Below, piece by piece: positions 1-38,941 of a stretch of 38,941 bases of DNA (position 1 is its first letter; the number at the start of each line of letters is the position of its first letter). The DNA is from Candidatus Latescibacterota bacterium. Its GTDB lineage: Bacteria; Krumholzibacteriota; Krumholzibacteriia; Krumholzibacteriales; Krumholzibacteriaceae. The notes under the pieces are model-generated. The model saw only the letters and a program-made list of their open reading frames with translations. It did not search any database and was not told the origin of the DNA. The stretch spans positions 1-38,941 of the forward strand of contig JAHOYU010000085.1 in NCBI GenBank assembly GCA_019038625.1. Direction: 5' to 3'. Both the position numbers and the translations under genes were made by a program.

Positions 1-54
1 GACGTCACAATCAGCACAAGGCTGTCAAAGACTTTGGGAAAAAGAAAATAGATG

Positions 55-274
55 GGCATTTAAAGAGGGGATGTTCGAATAAGGAATGATTTAGTGAGGA
101 ACATTCGAAGATGAGATGATTGGGTAGAGAATGTTCGAATGGGGAATGTTCGAAAAGGGAACGATTGGGAACAGAATGTAGAGTTGGCAATGTAGTAGCG
201 ATAATGCAGCCATCGATATTGCCGACATTGATAATCCAGACCTCGACAATAAAGACATCAATAATACAGAATAG
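55..274. repeat. Degenerate 15-nt tandem repeat (minisatellite)
   Basis: Nine imperfect 15-nt units run from 55 to 189. Examples are AATGTTCGAATGGGG (130-144), AATGTTCGAAAAGGG (145-159) and AACGATTGGGAACAG (160-174). The shared core is GAATGTTC, or GAACATTC on the other strand. A second 15-nt-periodic set follows at 224-268: GACATTGATAATCCA, GACCTCGACAATAAA, GACATCAATAATACA. The plus frame of that set reads pentapeptide-like DIDNP-DLDNK-DINNT and then stops. I see no convincing gene here on either strand. Stops interrupt the plus frame in the first block, and the open minus frame lacks a ribosome binding site. The stretch lies just downstream of the sigma-54 regulator gene and may be the remnant of a repeat-protein gene. 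Confidence 0.7.
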
Positions 275-32760: not shown

Positions 32761-32890
32761 ACGCTCTGACTCTCCTTCCCTGCATGTTTCTGATAATGGG
32801 CAGGGTACCACAGGCGGGGAGACCACAAAAAGCCATTTGAAGAATAATTATAGATACTGATTTACTCCTCCGTGCGCATTTGCGAACTAA

Positions 32891-33040
32891 GTGCAAGGAA
32901 ATTTACCTCCAACGCTGGAGGTAAAAAATCTTGCAGTTGTTTCGCTATAAGTCTGAGTGCTGATGCATTTGCGAACAAAACTCTATGATGGAAAGATCAC
33001 GCCGACATTATGTTAACCACCAGACAGGTCACTAATGCGC
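32891..33040 (+). ncRNA. Copy 1 of a ~150-bp repeated element with two stem-loops
   Basis: Aligned by hand with 38537-38685 it shows about 17 differences in about 150 positions. Stem I is 10 bp here: TTTACCTCCA (32902-32911), loop ACGC, TGGAGGTAAA (32916-32925). Stem II is AGTTGTTTCGC (32935-32945) with GCGAACAAAACT (32971-32982), about 10 pairs with small bulges. The 28 bases at 32935-32962 and 20 more at 32964-32983 are identical in the other copy, as is the ACATTATGTTAACCACCAGA block. A 12-mer GCATTTGCGAAC of stem II also occurs once more just outside, at 32876-32887. Whether it acts as RNA or DNA is not known. I use ncRNA as the nearest type. It lies 160 nt before the patatin start. Confidence 0.6.
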
Positions 33041-33119
33041 ATGACAGAATGAGCTGTGAAACTGGCAGTGGGAGGGAAATACCGGCTGCTCATACTTCTC
33101 GCCGGAAACGCCCACTTCG

Positions 33120-33148
33120 TTGACAATTCTCGGAATTTGACCTACTGT
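33120..33148 (+). promoter_or_regulatory. Weak promoter candidate for the patatin gene
   Basis: A perfect TTGACA (33120-33125) is followed after 17 bp by TACTGT, which matches only three of six -10 positions. A 12-bp palindrome CGATTCGAATCG (33160-33171) lies between it and the ribosome binding site and could be an operator. Confidence 0.35.
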
Positions 33149-33200
33149 ATCTGCTTATACGATTCGAATCGATATGAACACCATCCAAAAAGGAGTACTG

Positions 33201-35627
33201 ATGCTGGAAAGGATATTCAGATTCAGAATATTCAACGTCAGGATGAACAATACCTGGACATTCAACCCCAGAATATTCAGTGCCCGAATTTTCAAATCCT
33301 GGACATTCAACGCCAGGCCATGTAGTGCCAGACTCAGCGCCCGGATATTCACCGCCATAATATTTTCCGTTGCGATACTTTTCATGCCGGTGGTGGGAAA
33401 GTCGATAGCGCCACAGAATTCGACGACTTCCGAAGACAGCACATCGCTCTTGGAAGAAAGTCCCGATACGACAGAGTCTGGAAACAAAACAAAAGGACTT
33501 TCCTCGCCTGGAAAGGGAAAGCGCCCAGTCATCGGACTGGTCCTCAGTGGAGGAAGCGCAAAGGGACTGGCACACATCGGCGTCCTTAAGGTCCTCGAGG
33601 AAGAGGGGATCCAGGTCGATCTGGTGGCTGGCAACAGCATGGGCTCGCTCATGGGAGCCCTGTACGCGCTCGGCTATACGCCTGCCATGCTGGAAGACAT
33701 CGCTTTGAATACAGACTGGATCGAACTGCTGGGTAACAAGTTCGACCGAAAGCATGTCTCAATTGAAAAAAAAGAACGGATGGAGCGTTACGCATTCGAC
33801 CTCATCCTCGACGGTTACAAAGTCAGGCCATTGTCAGGACTCCTGTCCGGCCGTAAGGTCCACCGGCTGCTCACCAGATTGACGTGGCCGGCCAATTTCC
33901 TTGACGATTTCAGTCAGATGCCGAGACCGTTCCGCTGTATCGCGACTGACATCACCACGGGCGAGGGCGTGATCCTCGACAGCGGCTCTCTCGCCGACGC
34001 GATGAGGGCAAGCATGGCGATCCCGGGAGTATTCGCTCCCATCGAGATCGACGGAAAAATGCTGGTCGACGGAATGCTTGTCAGGAATTTTCCAACCCAG
34101 GACGCGCTGGATATGGGAGCTGATATCCTCATAGGCTCCGATGTCGGGTCCGATCCACTCGATCTGGACAAGATCAATTCGCTCCTCGACATCCTCAATC
34201 AATCCGTCGTTCTGGGCGACATGGTGAACAGGCAGAGTCAGCTCGATCTCTGCGATCTACTTGTCCTTCCCGATTTAAAGGATATCGGTTCTTTCTCCTT
34301 CAATAATGCTGATGAGATAATCCTGCGCGGCGAACAGGCTGCACGCGAAAAGATCGTTGAGATCAGGAAACTCGCTGAATATCTTTCCGCATGGGAGACC
34401 GAACCTATCCACGCGGAAATCGACCTTGAACGACCGATGCCGGTCTGCGGAATCAGGATCGACAGTAAAGACGAACTGAACACCGATTCCTTCCTGGGTC
34501 TCATCGGGATCGATCCGCCCTGCGATGTCACCATAGATCAGCTCGAATCCGCTATCGACATCCTTTACGGATCGGGCTCGTACTCCATGATCCAATACAG
34601 TTTCGAAAAGGAATCGGACTGCAGGACACTCGTTTTCCAGATCGACAGGGACGACAAGGACTATGTCTATACGGGACTGAGATACGACACGACATGGAGG
34701 ACCTCCATCCTCTTCAATCTTTCGTTGAAAGAATTTATGAGCGGGCACTCCGACCTTGAGGTCGATATCCTCCTCGGTCGACGTATGAGGCTGGGCACTC
34801 AATACAAACTCAGGGCAGGGACAAAGAACCGGACCGGGATCAGGGGCGACTTCGAATATCTCTCCGACTGGCTGGACGTTTACGATGGAGATTATCTCTC
34901 CGCCCGCCTGGACGTCAGGAATATCCGCGCCGGCCTTTATGCCGAATATGCTTTCTCAAGATATATATTCTGGGACTTTGGGCTGTTGAGTGAGTGGACA
35001 CAGGCCAACCCTCAGGTAGCTCCGCGCGGATTTGAAAAAGAGTGGACGAGGCTTAATTTCCTCGTGATGAATATCTGGTTCGATAACCTCGACAGGGCCT
35101 GGTTCCCCACGAAGGGCCTCCAGTTGAGACTGAGGGGAGAGTACGGAGACTTCGAGGAAGTTAACACCGACATGTTCAACCGGGTCGCGGGAAGGATGCT
35201 GTTCCGCCTGCCTCTTCATCGGAGCGTGAGCGTCGGAGCAAGACTCCTGTACGGATCGTCCGACGGTGAGAACATTCCATCACATTACAGGTTTTTCCTC
35301 GGAGGACTCAATTCGCCCTTTATGTTCCAGGACAGGCGCGAGATCAATTTCTATGGTTACCGCCATCAGGAACTGTCCGGGGAACACGCCTTTATCGCCG
35401 GGCTCGACCTGCAGTTCAAGCTCAATTCCATGACCTATCTCCTTCTGCATGGCAATGTGGGAAATGCGGTCGATGAATGGGAGAACCTCTTCAAGGAGGA
35501 GGGCATGGTATACGGGGCGGGAATCACTGTCGGAGTCGCTGCGCCGCTTGGCCCGGTCGAGATCACAATGGCCAATAGCAGAAGACATGATTTCCTTGTC
35601 TTCTTCGGAGCGGGGTACAGGTTCTGA
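33201..35627 (+). CDS. Patatin-like phospholipase fused to an outer-membrane barrel (PlpD/type Vd-like)
   Basis: An 808-residue protein. The ATG at 33201 has AAGGAG 5 nt upstream and is preferred to 33174. Residues 1 to about 50 are unusual pentapeptide repeats (RIFSA, RIFKS, WTFNA) encoded by a 15-nt minisatellite. They are followed by a hydrophobic segment (IFTAIIFSVAILFMPVVG). The patatin domain spans about 115-390: oxyanion motif LSGGSAKG, nucleophile Ser in GNSMGSLMG, and catalytic Asp in LVDGMLVRNFP. A POTRA-like region (DSFLGLIGIDPPCDVTIDQLESAIDILYGSG...) precedes a C-terminal 16-strand-type barrel ending FFGAGYRF with terminal Phe. Family members release or display a phospholipase A at the surface. 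A ceramidase-family lipoprotein follows. Confidence 0.93.
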   Translation: MLERIFRFRIFNVRMNNTWTFNPRIFSARIFKSWTFNARPCSARLSARIFTAIIFSVAILFMPVVGKSIAPQNSTTSEDSTSLLEESPDTTESGNKTKGLSSPGKGKRPVIGLVLSGGSAKGLAHIGVLKVLEEEGIQVDLVAGNSMGSLMGALYALGYTPAMLEDIALNTDWIELLGNKFDRKHVSIEKKERMERYAFDLILDGYKVRPLSGLLSGRKVHRLLTRLTWPANFLDDFSQMPRPFRCIATDITTGEGVILDSGSLADAMRASMAIPGVFAPIEIDGKMLVDGMLVRNFPTQDALDMGADILIGSDVGSDPLDLDKINSLLDILNQSVVLGDMVNRQSQLDLCDLLVLPDLKDIGSFSFNNADEIILRGEQAAREKIVEIRKLAEYLSAWETEPIHAEIDLERPMPVCGIRIDSKDELNTDSFLGLIGIDPPCDVTIDQLESAIDILYGSGSYSMIQYSFEKESDCRTLVFQIDRDDKDYVYTGLRYDTTWRTSILFNLSLKEFMSGHSDLEVDILLGRRMRLGTQYKLRAGTKNRTGIRGDFEYLSDWLDVYDGDYLSARLDVRNIRAGLYAEYAFSRYIFWDFGLLSEWTQANPQVAPRGFEKEWTRLNFLVMNIWFDNLDRAWFPTKGLQLRLRGEYGDFEEVNTDMFNRVAGRMLFRLPLHRSVSVGARLLYGSSDGENIPSHYRFFLGGLNSPFMFQDRREINFYGYRHQELSGEHAFIAGLDLQFKLNSMTYLLLHGNVGNAVDEWENLFKEEGMVYGAGITVGVAAPLGPVEITMANSRRHDFLVFFGAGYRF
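33210..33356 (+). repeat. 15-nt tandem repeat inside the patatin gene
   Basis: Units AGGATATTCAGATTC, AGAATATTCAACGTC, AGGATGAACAATACC, TGGACATTCAACCCC, AGAATATTCAGTGCC, CGAATTTTCAAATCC, TGGACATTCAACGCC and AGGCCATGTAGTGCC run without a break from 33210 to 33329. A 12-nt unit and one more 15-nt unit follow. The core is GAAYATTC. The codon frame gives R-I-F-x-x pentapeptides. The unit length and core match the repeat at 55-189, in a different reading frame. Confidence 0.8.
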
Positions 35628-35739
35628 GAATCCGATCGAATACAGGGATACGCCAGGGTCCCCTGCCCTCCGGAATCCGGAAAAGGGATAAATACATTGA
35701 CCTAGGTGTCGCCGTTTTTTGCGGAAGGATGAGAAATTG

Positions 35740-37875
35740 ATGACCCGACAGTCCAGAACCGCCATCTTGATCCTGATTATTTTTGTTCTTAGCGGATGCG
35801 CCGGGATATCAGGCAGGCTGCCCGCTCCTCTCGCTCCAGAACCGACCGGAGAGTTCCTTGCAGGAGCATCGAGAGTCGATATTACGCCTATGCCGGGATA
35901 TCCGATGGGAGGTTACGCCGTGGCGGGTTACATATCGCGTGGGGTCTGGATGAGGCTTCATGCCCGGGCCGTCTGCTTCGAGGATCCTGACGGGAGATGC
36001 CTGGCGATGGTATCGACGGACCTATGGGCGATGCCCGCGGGGCTCGCCGACCGTGTCGCGGAGCTTGTATCCTGCGAATTCGGGATAGGGCGGCTGGCCA
36101 GAGAACAGATCATACTCGCCGCGACTCACACTCACAACGGTCCTGGAAATTACTCCTCCAGCAAGCTTTATAACCAGATGGCCTCGCCCGAGGGCGGCTT
36201 CGATCGCGATCTGTTCGATTTCCTTGCCTATCGTATCGCTGTATCGATAGCCGCGGCTTGGGAGAAACGCGGGCCGGCGATGCTGAAATATGCCGAGGCT
36301 CCCGTTCCGGGTGTGGCCAGAAACAGAAGTATCGGACCCTTCCTTGCCAACGGTGAGGACGCCCTCGCCCTGATCGAGGAGAACAGGGACCTGCCGATCC
36401 GAAGGACGCCGTACCCCGTCGGAGGCGACGACGCCTACCGTGCGCTCGACCAGACCATGAGAGTCATCCGGGTCGAAAGCGTTGGATCCAGCCTGTCTCC
36501 CCTTGCTGTCCTGGTCTTCTACGCTGTCCATCCCACTGTCATGAACACGCCCACGGAAGTATACAACAGCGATATCTTCGGAATAGCCTCTGCAAAGGTG
36601 GAGCGATCGCTTGAGAAGGCGGCGGGATCTTCTGTGCGACCGGTCGTAGCGATCTTCAACGGTCCCGAAGGCGATATCGCGGCAAACTGGACCCGAAGAG
36701 ATCGGGAAGATGCTATCGAAGTAGGTTCGATACTAGCCAGCGGAATCATGAACCTTGTCGACGATCCCGGAGAAGAGATGACCGGAGAGATCGACTTCAA
36801 CTTCGGACACACAAAGCTGTCCGACCTGGCTGGCCCCCTTTCTGGAGCTTCGACCCTGTGCGGCGCCGAGGCTGACTGGGCATTCTTCCGTGACGCAGGA
36901 TTCTACGAGGGAATGACCCAGCTTGACCCCGAAAAACAGATCAAGGGGCAGGGAGTAAAACGTCATCCCCTCGAGGACGACGTCAAATCGAATACACTCA
37001 AGACTATGTACCCATGGATCGTCGAGACTGTTCTCGATCCACCCGAGTCTGTCCCCCTCGGTGTCTACCGGATCGGCCCTGTCGTCATTGGCACATTGCC
37101 CGGTGAGTTCACGACGATACTGGGGCGGCGCATCAGAAGAGGCATCAGCAGCGAACTTCCCGATGCGAAACATGTGCTTCTCGTCGGCATGGCAAACGAG
37201 TATCTCTCTTATTTCACAACGGAAGAAGAGTACGCTCACCAGCACTACGAGGGCGCTTCGATGATGTATGGCCCGAAGGCGGGAACGCGGATAGGCGATG
37301 AACTCGCTTCCCTCGCTGCGGGTCTGGGTAAGACGGTGCTTCGCAAGAATAAGATAAAATACAGCTATTCAACGGGATCGGGAAAAAAGTTTGGAGTCAA
37401 GCAGTTCGATCTTATATCTCACCAGGATAGACTGAAGGCTCATCACTACAACCTCGCCACCGTCCTGATGGACCCGGAAACCTGCATGCCGGTAACGGAC
37501 AATCCCAGGTTCGTTTGGATCGACGATAACCCCGGGTGGGACGGCGATCACCAGACACAACCTGCAGTGATGCCGGCCGCGGCGATCGAGACAAAAACTG
37601 AATCCGGCTGGTCGCCCCTCTATATCGACGGTATCCCTGAAAACGATGACGGAACGGATTTCGTGACGGCGATCGTGGCCTCTCTTCTGGGAAAGACAAG
37701 ATGGACCACGATCTGGATGGTACCCGATCAGATGGAGAATGATCCTGTCCTCAGGGCAGCGGAATACCGGTTCGTAATAAGAGGAACCAGCGGAGTATTC
37801 AGGTCGCCTCCCTTCACGCTGGACTCTGCCCGCTCACACGACGGTTTGACGGGAGTCGTTCGCGGACCTGAGTAA
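35740..37875 (+). CDS. Neutral/alkaline ceramidase-family lipoprotein lacking the usual nucleophile
   Basis: A 711-residue lipoprotein (lipobox VLSGC). The ATG at 35740 is preferred; the longer frame starts with TTG. The ceramidase-type N-terminal domain begins FLAGASRVDITPMPGYPMGGY. It has the zinc motif AATHTHNGPGNYSS and a later His in VFYAVHPTVMNTPT. In true ceramidases the nucleophilic Ser lies in GDxSPN. The corresponding segment here is EGDIAANW, with Ala in its place. A middle insertion and the immunoglobulin-like C-terminal domain (about 560-711) follow. The fold and metal site seem intact, so a different hydrolytic or binding role is likely. The patatin-barrel gene lies 112 nt upstream in the same direction, which suggests lipid-related work at the envelope (inference). 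Confidence 0.88.
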   Translation: MTRQSRTAILILIIFVLSGCAGISGRLPAPLAPEPTGEFLAGASRVDITPMPGYPMGGYAVAGYISRGVWMRLHARAVCFEDPDGRCLAMVSTDLWAMPAGLADRVAELVSCEFGIGRLAREQIILAATHTHNGPGNYSSSKLYNQMASPEGGFDRDLFDFLAYRIAVSIAAAWEKRGPAMLKYAEAPVPGVARNRSIGPFLANGEDALALIEENRDLPIRRTPYPVGGDDAYRALDQTMRVIRVESVGSSLSPLAVLVFYAVHPTVMNTPTEVYNSDIFGIASAKVERSLEKAAGSSVRPVVAIFNGPEGDIAANWTRRDREDAIEVGSILASGIMNLVDDPGEEMTGEIDFNFGHTKLSDLAGPLSGASTLCGAEADWAFFRDAGFYEGMTQLDPEKQIKGQGVKRHPLEDDVKSNTLKTMYPWIVETVLDPPESVPLGVYRIGPVVIGTLPGEFTTILGRRIRRGISSELPDAKHVLLVGMANEYLSYFTTEEEYAHQHYEGASMMYGPKAGTRIGDELASLAAGLGKTVLRKNKIKYSYSTGSGKKFGVKQFDLISHQDRLKAHHYNLATVLMDPETCMPVTDNPRFVWIDDNPGWDGDHQTQPAVMPAAAIETKTESGWSPLYIDGIPENDDGTDFVTAIVASLLGKTRWTTIWMVPDQMENDPVLRAAEYRFVIRGTSGVFRSPPFTLDSARSHDGLTGVVRGPE

Positions 37876-38524
37876 CAGTACACTGATTTCTCGCTATTTC
37901 TTCAAAATCCTGAAACAAATGCCAGGCTCAAGCGTATCTCTGGCAAACGAGATCGGCCCACTGGTCCTGATGCTCCAACCTGGTTCGGCAGACAACATGC
38001 TTATCAGGATAGGTAGCAGTAACGTATCAGGAGCCCTGGAATTCATAGAGGGTACCTGGGAAGATCTCTTCCCCGGACATCCGTTCGAGTACAGCTTTCT
38101 CGATGATGACCTCAGCGGCGGGTATACGAACATCAAGCAGAGTGGCAGACTTCTCGACGCGTTTGCCGTCCTCGCGATCGTCATAGCCTCTCTCGGTCTT
38201 TTCGGCCTCGCTTCCTTTACTGCCGAACAGCGCACCAAAGAGATAGGGATAAGGAAAGTCCTCGGATCCTCAACGAGCGGCATCGTCGTACTGCTCACCA
38301 GGGAATTTACAAAGTGCCTGGTGATCTCGACTGTCATCGCATGCCCTGCGGGATATATGATAATGAGACACTGGCTGAAAGATTTCGCCTACCGCGTGAA
38401 CATGGATGTGTGGATGTTCGCCGTCCCTGTCCTCGCAACAGCAATCATCTCGGTGATCGCTGTCAGCTACCAGTCGATCAGAGCAGCTACCTCCGACCCG
38501 GTTGATTCGTTGATGTATGAGTAG
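37850..38524 (+). pseudogene. C-terminal fragment of a large FtsX/MacB-type ABC permease
   Basis: The frame is open from the stop at 37847-37849; the first ATG is at 37919 (201 residues). It reads as the last quarter of an ~800-residue permease: LMLQPGSADNMLIRIGSSNVSGALEFIEGTWEDLFPGHPFEYSFLDDD, then membrane helices with ASFTAEQRTKEIGIRKVLGSS, and the end SDPVDSLMYE. The open frame starts within the ceramidase gene end and has no ribosome binding site. The first permease half is missing, so this is a truncated remnant. It is different in type from the permeases at 16567-19097. Copy 2 of the repeated element begins 13 nt after its stop. Confidence 0.8.
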
Positions 38525-38536
38525 TGTGAGTGGAAT

Positions 38537-38685
38537 GTGTAAGGAAATCTATCACCAACGGTGGTGATAAAAACTCTTGCAGTTGTTTCGCTATAAGTCT
38601 GAGTGCTGCTGCATTTGCGAACAAAACTCGATAATGGAGAGATCACAACGACATTATGTTAACCACCAGAAGGTCGCTTATGCGC
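38537..38685 (+). ncRNA. Copy 2 of the ~150-bp repeated element with two stem-loops
   Basis: Same orientation as copy 1. Stem I is TATCACCA (38550-38557) with TGGTGATA (38562-38569), loop ACGG. Compared with copy 1 two pairs changed on both sides: C-G to T-A and T-A to A-T. This keeps the stem intact. Stem II is AGTTGTTTCGC (38581-38591) with GCGAACAAAACT (38617-38628), identical to copy 1. The element lies 144 nt before the start of the next exported protein and upstream of that gene's promoter. Confidence 0.6.
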
Positions 38686-38782
38686 GTTTGACAAATCAAC
38701 CATCAGCAGTTATTTTTATTGTAAGGAGAGACCTTTACACTTTTACAAAATACCCCGCCAACAGGATCCGTTCTTTGATCAG

Positions 38783-38829: not shown

Positions 38830-38941
38830 ATGCGTGTTTGTAGTCGTACAATCGCGGGCACACTCATTCTCGCTCTCATCCTGATTATCGGGCACCCACT
38901 TGCTGCCCGGGAATCATCAGAAATCATGTCAAAAACTGAAG
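38830..38941 (+). CDS. Exported protein, 5' end only (cut by the window edge)
   Basis: The ATG at 38830 has AAGGAGGAG about 6 nt upstream. The 37 visible residues begin MRVCSRTIAGTLILALILII and continue GHPLAARESSEIMSKTE. This is a typical signal peptide with probable cleavage after PLAA. The mature protein starts with polar residues, but too little is visible to name a family. The frame is still open at the last base of the window. Confidence 0.82.
   Translation, partial: MRVCSRTIAGTLILALILIIGHPLAARESSEIMSKTE

Follow-up and report, generated by a model that had tools for sequence, protein, structure and literature searches.

What kind of element is the sequence of about 150 bp that occurs twice in the window (the whole stretch of 38,941 nucleotides analysed here), and by what means has it spread? 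A first-pass annotation of the DNA had described it as present in two copies with a covarying stem, and had considered a structured RNA, a regulatory DNA hairpin and a small mobile element. Alignment of the two intervals that it gave (32891-33040, here W1, and 38537-38685, W2) reproduced its count, with 17 mismatch or gap columns of 150, and a DNA search of the genome itself returned the pair at 89% identity (E=2e-49), so that the similarity is not a matter of chance. The two exactly compensatory changes that had been reported, C-G to T-A and T-A to A-T, are present in the apical stem, whose arms are TTACCTCCA/TGGAGGTAA in W1 and CTATCACCA/TGGTGATAA in W2; its outermost pair also differs, T-A against C-A, and is uncompensated, and the 3' stretch CTTGCAGTTGTTTCGCTATAAGTCTGAGTGCTG is unchanged between the copies. 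Both copies do lie in the same orientation, with the next plus-strand ORFs starting ~134 bp (at 33174) and ~145 bp (at 38830) further on. The element had been placed correctly and its extent drawn slightly short, since W1 has TGCGCATTTGCGAAC at its 5' end and the same sequence, reversed, as TGCGCATTA at the other (Table 1). Part of this end, GCATTTGCGAAC, recurs as a direct repeat inside W1 at 32965-32976. W2 has the 3' end and no recognisable 5' end, and begins 12 bp past the stop codon of a permease-like ORF. Behind W1, the N-terminal part of the ORF consists of degenerate repeats (ATTCAAC.CCAGAATATTCA..., window 33205-33340); the start may be wrong, or a low-complexity region may precede the signal peptide.

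Table 1. Coordinates of the element copies, their parts and an HNH-family gene end in the window.
Feature	Position	Strand	Basis
HNH-family gene copy, C-terminal end at the contig edge, not joined to W1 or W2	1..89	+	
W1, intergenic repeat copy, 5' and 3' ends both present	32873..33041	+	alignment with W2, C90 and G001:C139
W1 5' end TGCGCATTTGCGAAC, inverted at the W1 3' end	32873..32887	+	
W1 hairpin, lower stem TGCAAG/CTTGCA enclosing the 22-bp type-K palindrome	32892..32935	+	fold z, covariation
W1 type-K palindrome TTACCTCCAACGCTGGAGGTAA, of the kind common to HNH genes	32903..32924	.	
W1 ATTATGTTAACC, same letters as the XerD half of dif in Sulfurimonas	33007..33018	+	sequence identity
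W1 3' end AATGCGCA, inverted copy of the 5' end	33034..33041	-	
W2, second intergenic copy	38537..38686	+	alignment
W2 type-K palindrome CTATCACCAACGGTGGTGATAA	38549..38570	.	
W2 ATTATGTTAACC motif	38653..38664	+	

The element is not confined to two copies. The DNA search of the assembly added two further loci, and a palindrome pattern together with a covariance model built from 16 copies brought the total in this genome (G000) to ~11 (contig C85 twice, C3, C35, C44, C72 twice, C90, C104, C179 and C243). A search of 193 genomes, mostly fragmented MAGs, found copies in the same genus and family. The congener G001 has five loci, and further ones lie in G005, G010, G014 and G017; the palindrome pattern read backwards, used as a control, had zero matches in every genome searched with it. 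Among 84,980 species genomes, an exact longer pattern matched Krumholzibacteriota MAGs only, and we accordingly take the host to belong to Candidatus Krumholzibacteriia. No viral contig was matched by any of three patterns, and a phage origin was rejected. W1 and W2 thus belong to a dispersed, apparently undescribed family of DNA palindromes found, as far as we searched, only in Krumholzibacteriia.

Full copies (W1, C90 and G001:C139) are 155-170 bp long, carry inverted repeats of the TGCGCATTT type at their ends, contain ATTATGTTAAC, and have ATTATGTTAAYC ~25 bp before the 3' end; many shorter copies are without these ends. The core is a palindrome of 22-24 bp, which we call type K (about TTTACCNNCRNCGNYGNNGGTAAA), set on a lower stem such as GTGCAAG/CTTGCAC. 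Over the 16 copies, 89% of the cells of the apical helix are paired, both sides have changed in four of its ten pairs, and the whole structure exceeds slid controls in pairing and in covariation score, which upholds on many more copies the earlier claim that base pairing is conserved. Compensated changes account for most of the difference between K and another palindrome, type S (about TTCACTCCCNNNNNNGGGAGTGAA), which a search of 146 genomes located in eight, all of them from the same two families. The two types stand together, ~85 bp apart, in G014, and in G003 and G010 type S is directly followed by AYATTATGTTAAC. Integron attC boxes follow GTTRRRY/RYYYAAC; they do not fit the palindrome, and identity with attC was rejected. 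Three copies (C104, L178 1816-2042; C243, L089 1826-2058; G001:C155, L093 2965-3195) also have in common an extra ~175 bp upstream of the palindrome, at 75-81% identity, and a longer sub-family of the element therefore exists.

Some copies of the palindrome lie in frame within the genes of one multi-copy HNH-nuclease family, in the linker between domains, either in the same form as the intergenic copies or as the compensated variant CACTCCC..GGGAGTG. With arms of at least 9 bp and always in the same frame, it was present in 26 of the 31 HNH genes of the two families with readable linkers, where it encodes peptides such as KFTADVGGKK and FTPGAGSEK. It is imperfect in four genes (G010 C63, G017 C71, G022 C294 and G020 C1) and was not found in the linker of G024 C185. 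HNH-family genes are the only clear coding hosts, at one or two linker sites; in G015, three identical palindromes of a variant specific to that genome (centre GGTACC) occupy two linkers of one gene. Outside the two families, an HNH gene of G042 carries AGTCCCGCGGCGGGACT followed by GATATTATGTTAACTA, and in G075, from yet another family, a third perfect palindrome, ACTGATCCCGGGATCAGT, occurs in the HNH linker and again upstream of where the gene probably starts (L249, 1729 and 2915), which suggests that the link between HNH genes and palindromes is wider than two families. Other HNH homologues of G042, G044 and G047 had no palindrome.

The HNH domain of the palindrome-bearing protein matched above the cut-off, and its match to DUF222 was sub-threshold (21.8 bits against a cut-off of 24.4). 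Similarity to the HNH domains of IscB and Cas9 is only distant, and a plasmid origin of the protein was rejected, the only matches being weak ones to the HNH domain in Deinococcus. Like the first contig edge of the window, contig ends of many relatives fall in this gene family, which is therefore a major cause of assembly breaks; the short HNH ORFs of G008, considered as breaks at the palindrome, proved to be contig ends. Several G008 copies (L126, L143, L314) have a second hairpin, AGGCGGTTATGC-GCGAA-GCATAACCGCCT, in the sequence coding for the HNH domain. Three G005 contigs (C101, C6 and C214; L100, L102 and L095) have a common GC-rich repeat behind the palindrome; at C101 this repeat comes after an HNH gene's N-terminal half, an arrangement that recombination at the palindrome, or an assembly error, could have produced.

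We compared the HNH-gene palindromes with versions in which the peptide was fixed and synonymous codons were drawn at random. Of 180 positions, 166 were paired where 85 were expected, and the palindrome as a mere by-product of the peptide was rejected. Imperfect pairs were G-T six times and A-C six times in the intergenic copies, and G-T zero times and A-C five times on the HNH coding strands; this lack of a G-U excess over A-C argues against selection for an RNA hairpin. With pairing far above what the peptide demands and no G-U bias, we conclude that the palindrome is kept as DNA.

A structured RNA, or a cis-regulatory RNA hairpin acting on neighbouring genes, consequently appears improbable, even though the stem covaries and the W1 hairpin, with fold z of -4.0 on the plus strand and -4.2 on the minus strand, surpasses every one of 200 shuffles on either strand. 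The fold of W2 is barely above that of its shuffles (z -1.4), Rfam had no match for the element, copies lie within reading frames, and position and strand relative to genes are inconstant: intergenic copies occupy convergent, tandem and divergent gene spaces with mixed neighbours. The element is thus most likely not an RNA, and among the options first offered it is the mobile or palindromic repeat that is favoured, with the addition of the in-frame HNH copies, which that annotation had not seen. A role specific to the downstream genes for exported proteins likewise finds no support, given the varying orientation of neighbours and the history of the W2 site. There, G001:C89 matches the promoter and gene behind the element at 85% identity, from 2 bp past the element onwards, and what G001 has in place of the element is a degraded match to its 3' end (GTTAACCACAGGGAAGGGCGCAAATACGC; 0.1-0.3% of shuffles were as good), so that the gene evidently does not need an intact copy. 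This remnant also led us to reject G001:C89 as a clean empty site. Tandem GCGGCATCGTGTCG-like repeats lie between remnant and promoter (L176 2105-2230). At another pair of orthologous sites, C243 of G000 and C102 of G001, the element is kept in both genomes.

Genomes tend to use their own palindrome variant in both HNH genes and intergenic sites. Examples are TTTACCGTCAACGTTGAC(G/A)GTAAA in G017, CACTCCCAACGTTGGGAGTG in G007 and, within G000, the odd variant GCCGCATGCGGC common to the HNH gene of C44 and intergenic C3; as an exception, the type-K palindromes of G014 have no match in the sole HNH gene of that genome that could be fully read. Only 12 of 40,320 relabellings matched intergenic to HNH palindromes as well as the true assignment, and in family f1 palindromes outside HNH genes occurred in 8 of 11 HNH-positive against 0 of 9 HNH-negative genomes, both tests being confounded by ancestry, as G008, G014 and G017 are one genus and most HNH-negative genomes another. 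The HNH-negative genomes of f1 had neither K nor S. G005 was left out of the genomes with non-HNH palindromes because its C6 and C214 copies, both at contig ends, could be linked to HNH genes. No HNH sequence was found within 800 bp of ~30 non-HNH copies, and we therefore rejected the idea that intergenic copies are relics of decayed HNH genes.

The best reading of these results, in our judgement, is an HNH-linked palindromic repeat of the REP or RPE kind: W1 and W2 are intergenic copies of a Krumholzibacteriia palindrome family linked to multi-copy HNH genes (DUF222-like part plus HNH), and the palindrome would be the site of this system and be spread by repair. We put its probability at roughly 0.45. 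The palindrome would serve as its dyad DNA site, to be nicked or cut by the HNH protein, probably acting as a dimer, or by a partner; and repair from another copy would spread and homogenise the current variant of the genome between HNH genes and intergenic sites. What the sequences show is the lineage-restricted family, its in-frame copies, the palindromy of the DNA, the genome-specific variants and the co-occurrence with HNH genes; recognition and cutting by the HNH protein or a partner, and spread by repair, are what we infer. Such a repeat would work like a REP or a Rickettsia palindromic element, an HNH enzyme replacing the HuH (RAYT) transposase. The long flanking parts, namely the TGCGCATTT ends and the XerD-like motif, are unexplained by HNH cutting. 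That the system is an HNH-based counterpart of the REPtron, in which nuclease genes carry their own recognition site in frame and seed or homogenise satellite copies across the genome by cutting and repair, is a more speculative proposal that we consider rather unlikely.

The main rival to HNH cutting, itself somewhat improbable, is that some conventional transposase, as yet unknown, moves the repeat as a non-autonomous MITE- or RPE-like element, with HNH linkers merely tolerant of in-frame insertion and HNH gene duplication carrying the palindrome along. The inverted ends of full copies, the mostly intergenic positions with mixed neighbours and the precedent of in-frame insertion by RPEs (PMC10969869) would all suit it. 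However, no target-site duplication, which the first-pass annotation had proposed to look for, was visible at W1, C90 or G001:C139, where no clean empty site was available for comparison, and a pattern search of the draft genomes G000, G001 and G005 found no autonomous transposon with paired element ends around a transposase. It would also have to accommodate the restriction of coding hosts to HNH genes and the constant use of one frame where two are open.

The ends point to another possibility, that ATTATGTTAACC and the TGCGCATTT ends are dif-derived half-sites and that folded palindromic DNA is integrated or excised by the host XerC/XerD. The element motif ATTATGTTAAC is identical, in sequence, to the published XerD halves of dif, which are ACATTATGTTAACC in Sulfurimonas and ATATTATGTTAATC in Sulfurovum (PMC2731167); ATTATGTTAACC also adjoins palindromes in G003, G010 and G042, and in the subset of sequence searched, 10 of 15 distinct contexts of ATTATGTTAA were in or beside elements or HNH palindromes. 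Against this exploitation of Xer, which we hold to be unlikely, many copies are without the motif, no element contains a complete 28-bp dif (XerC arm, 6 bp, XerD arm), viral contigs had no match, and a search by GC skew for the host dif gave nothing convincing in ~0.8 Mb of G007. Least probable of all is that a RAYT (TnpA-REP) transposase has spread the palindromes as a REP/BIME family. The palindromes are short and dispersed, two types are paired in G014 and three Y1_Tnp matches occur in G008, but Y1_Tnp (PF01797) was not found in G000, G001, G003, G005, G007, G010 or G014, all of them palindrome carriers. Since most carriers thus lack a detectable Y1/RAYT transposase, this is not a classical REP system and RAYT was excluded as the general driver; the idea is largely refuted and would need a RAYT missed in the unassembled 4% of G000.

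Where dispersed bacterial palindromes have a cognate enzyme, the best-studied cases involve HuH transposases. Were the HNH-linked reading true, it would introduce a new pairing, that of an in-frame palindrome in multi-copy HNH nuclease genes with matching intergenic copies, and would suggest for multi-copy HNH/DUF222-like genes of unknown role a function that can be tested. Symmetry of the DNA here constrains a protein-coding segment across large divergence, and the in-frame palindromes hint that palindromic repeats may be spread or maintained by a means not recognised so far.

Among known systems, MITEs are alike in their size of 155-170 bp, inverted ends and lack of an internal gene, and differ in that the palindrome family has no visible target duplication or parent transposon. 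Elements that exploit Xer have in common with it a retained half-site, ATTATGTTAAC, and TGCGCAT-type ends, whereas the palindrome family has dispersed positions and neither a complete 28-bp dif nor cargo or phage. In Mycobacterium tuberculosis, REP13E12/HNH/DUF222 genes form known repeats (PMC10589994); they are likewise multi-copy and combine an HNH domain with a DUF222-like N-terminal part, the DUF222 match here being below the cut-off. Our searches of the open-licence literature turned up no account of palindromes within genes of this kind. Rickettsia palindromic elements, from another phylum and with no sequence relation claimed, are palindromes of up to ~150 bp that occur between genes and also in frame within coding sequence, but they insert into many unrelated genes, where we found only HNH genes as clear coding hosts. 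REP/BIME sequences and their RAYT (the REPtron) resemble the family in their short, dispersed, mostly intergenic palindromes, genome-specific variants and candidate cognate enzyme family; here the Y1 HuH transposase is absent from most carriers, the candidate enzyme is an HNH protein and the gene of that enzyme itself contains the palindrome. By analogy, its closest parallels in the way it works may be REP/REPtron systems (PMC8266576) and the Rickettsia palindromic elements (PMC10969869).
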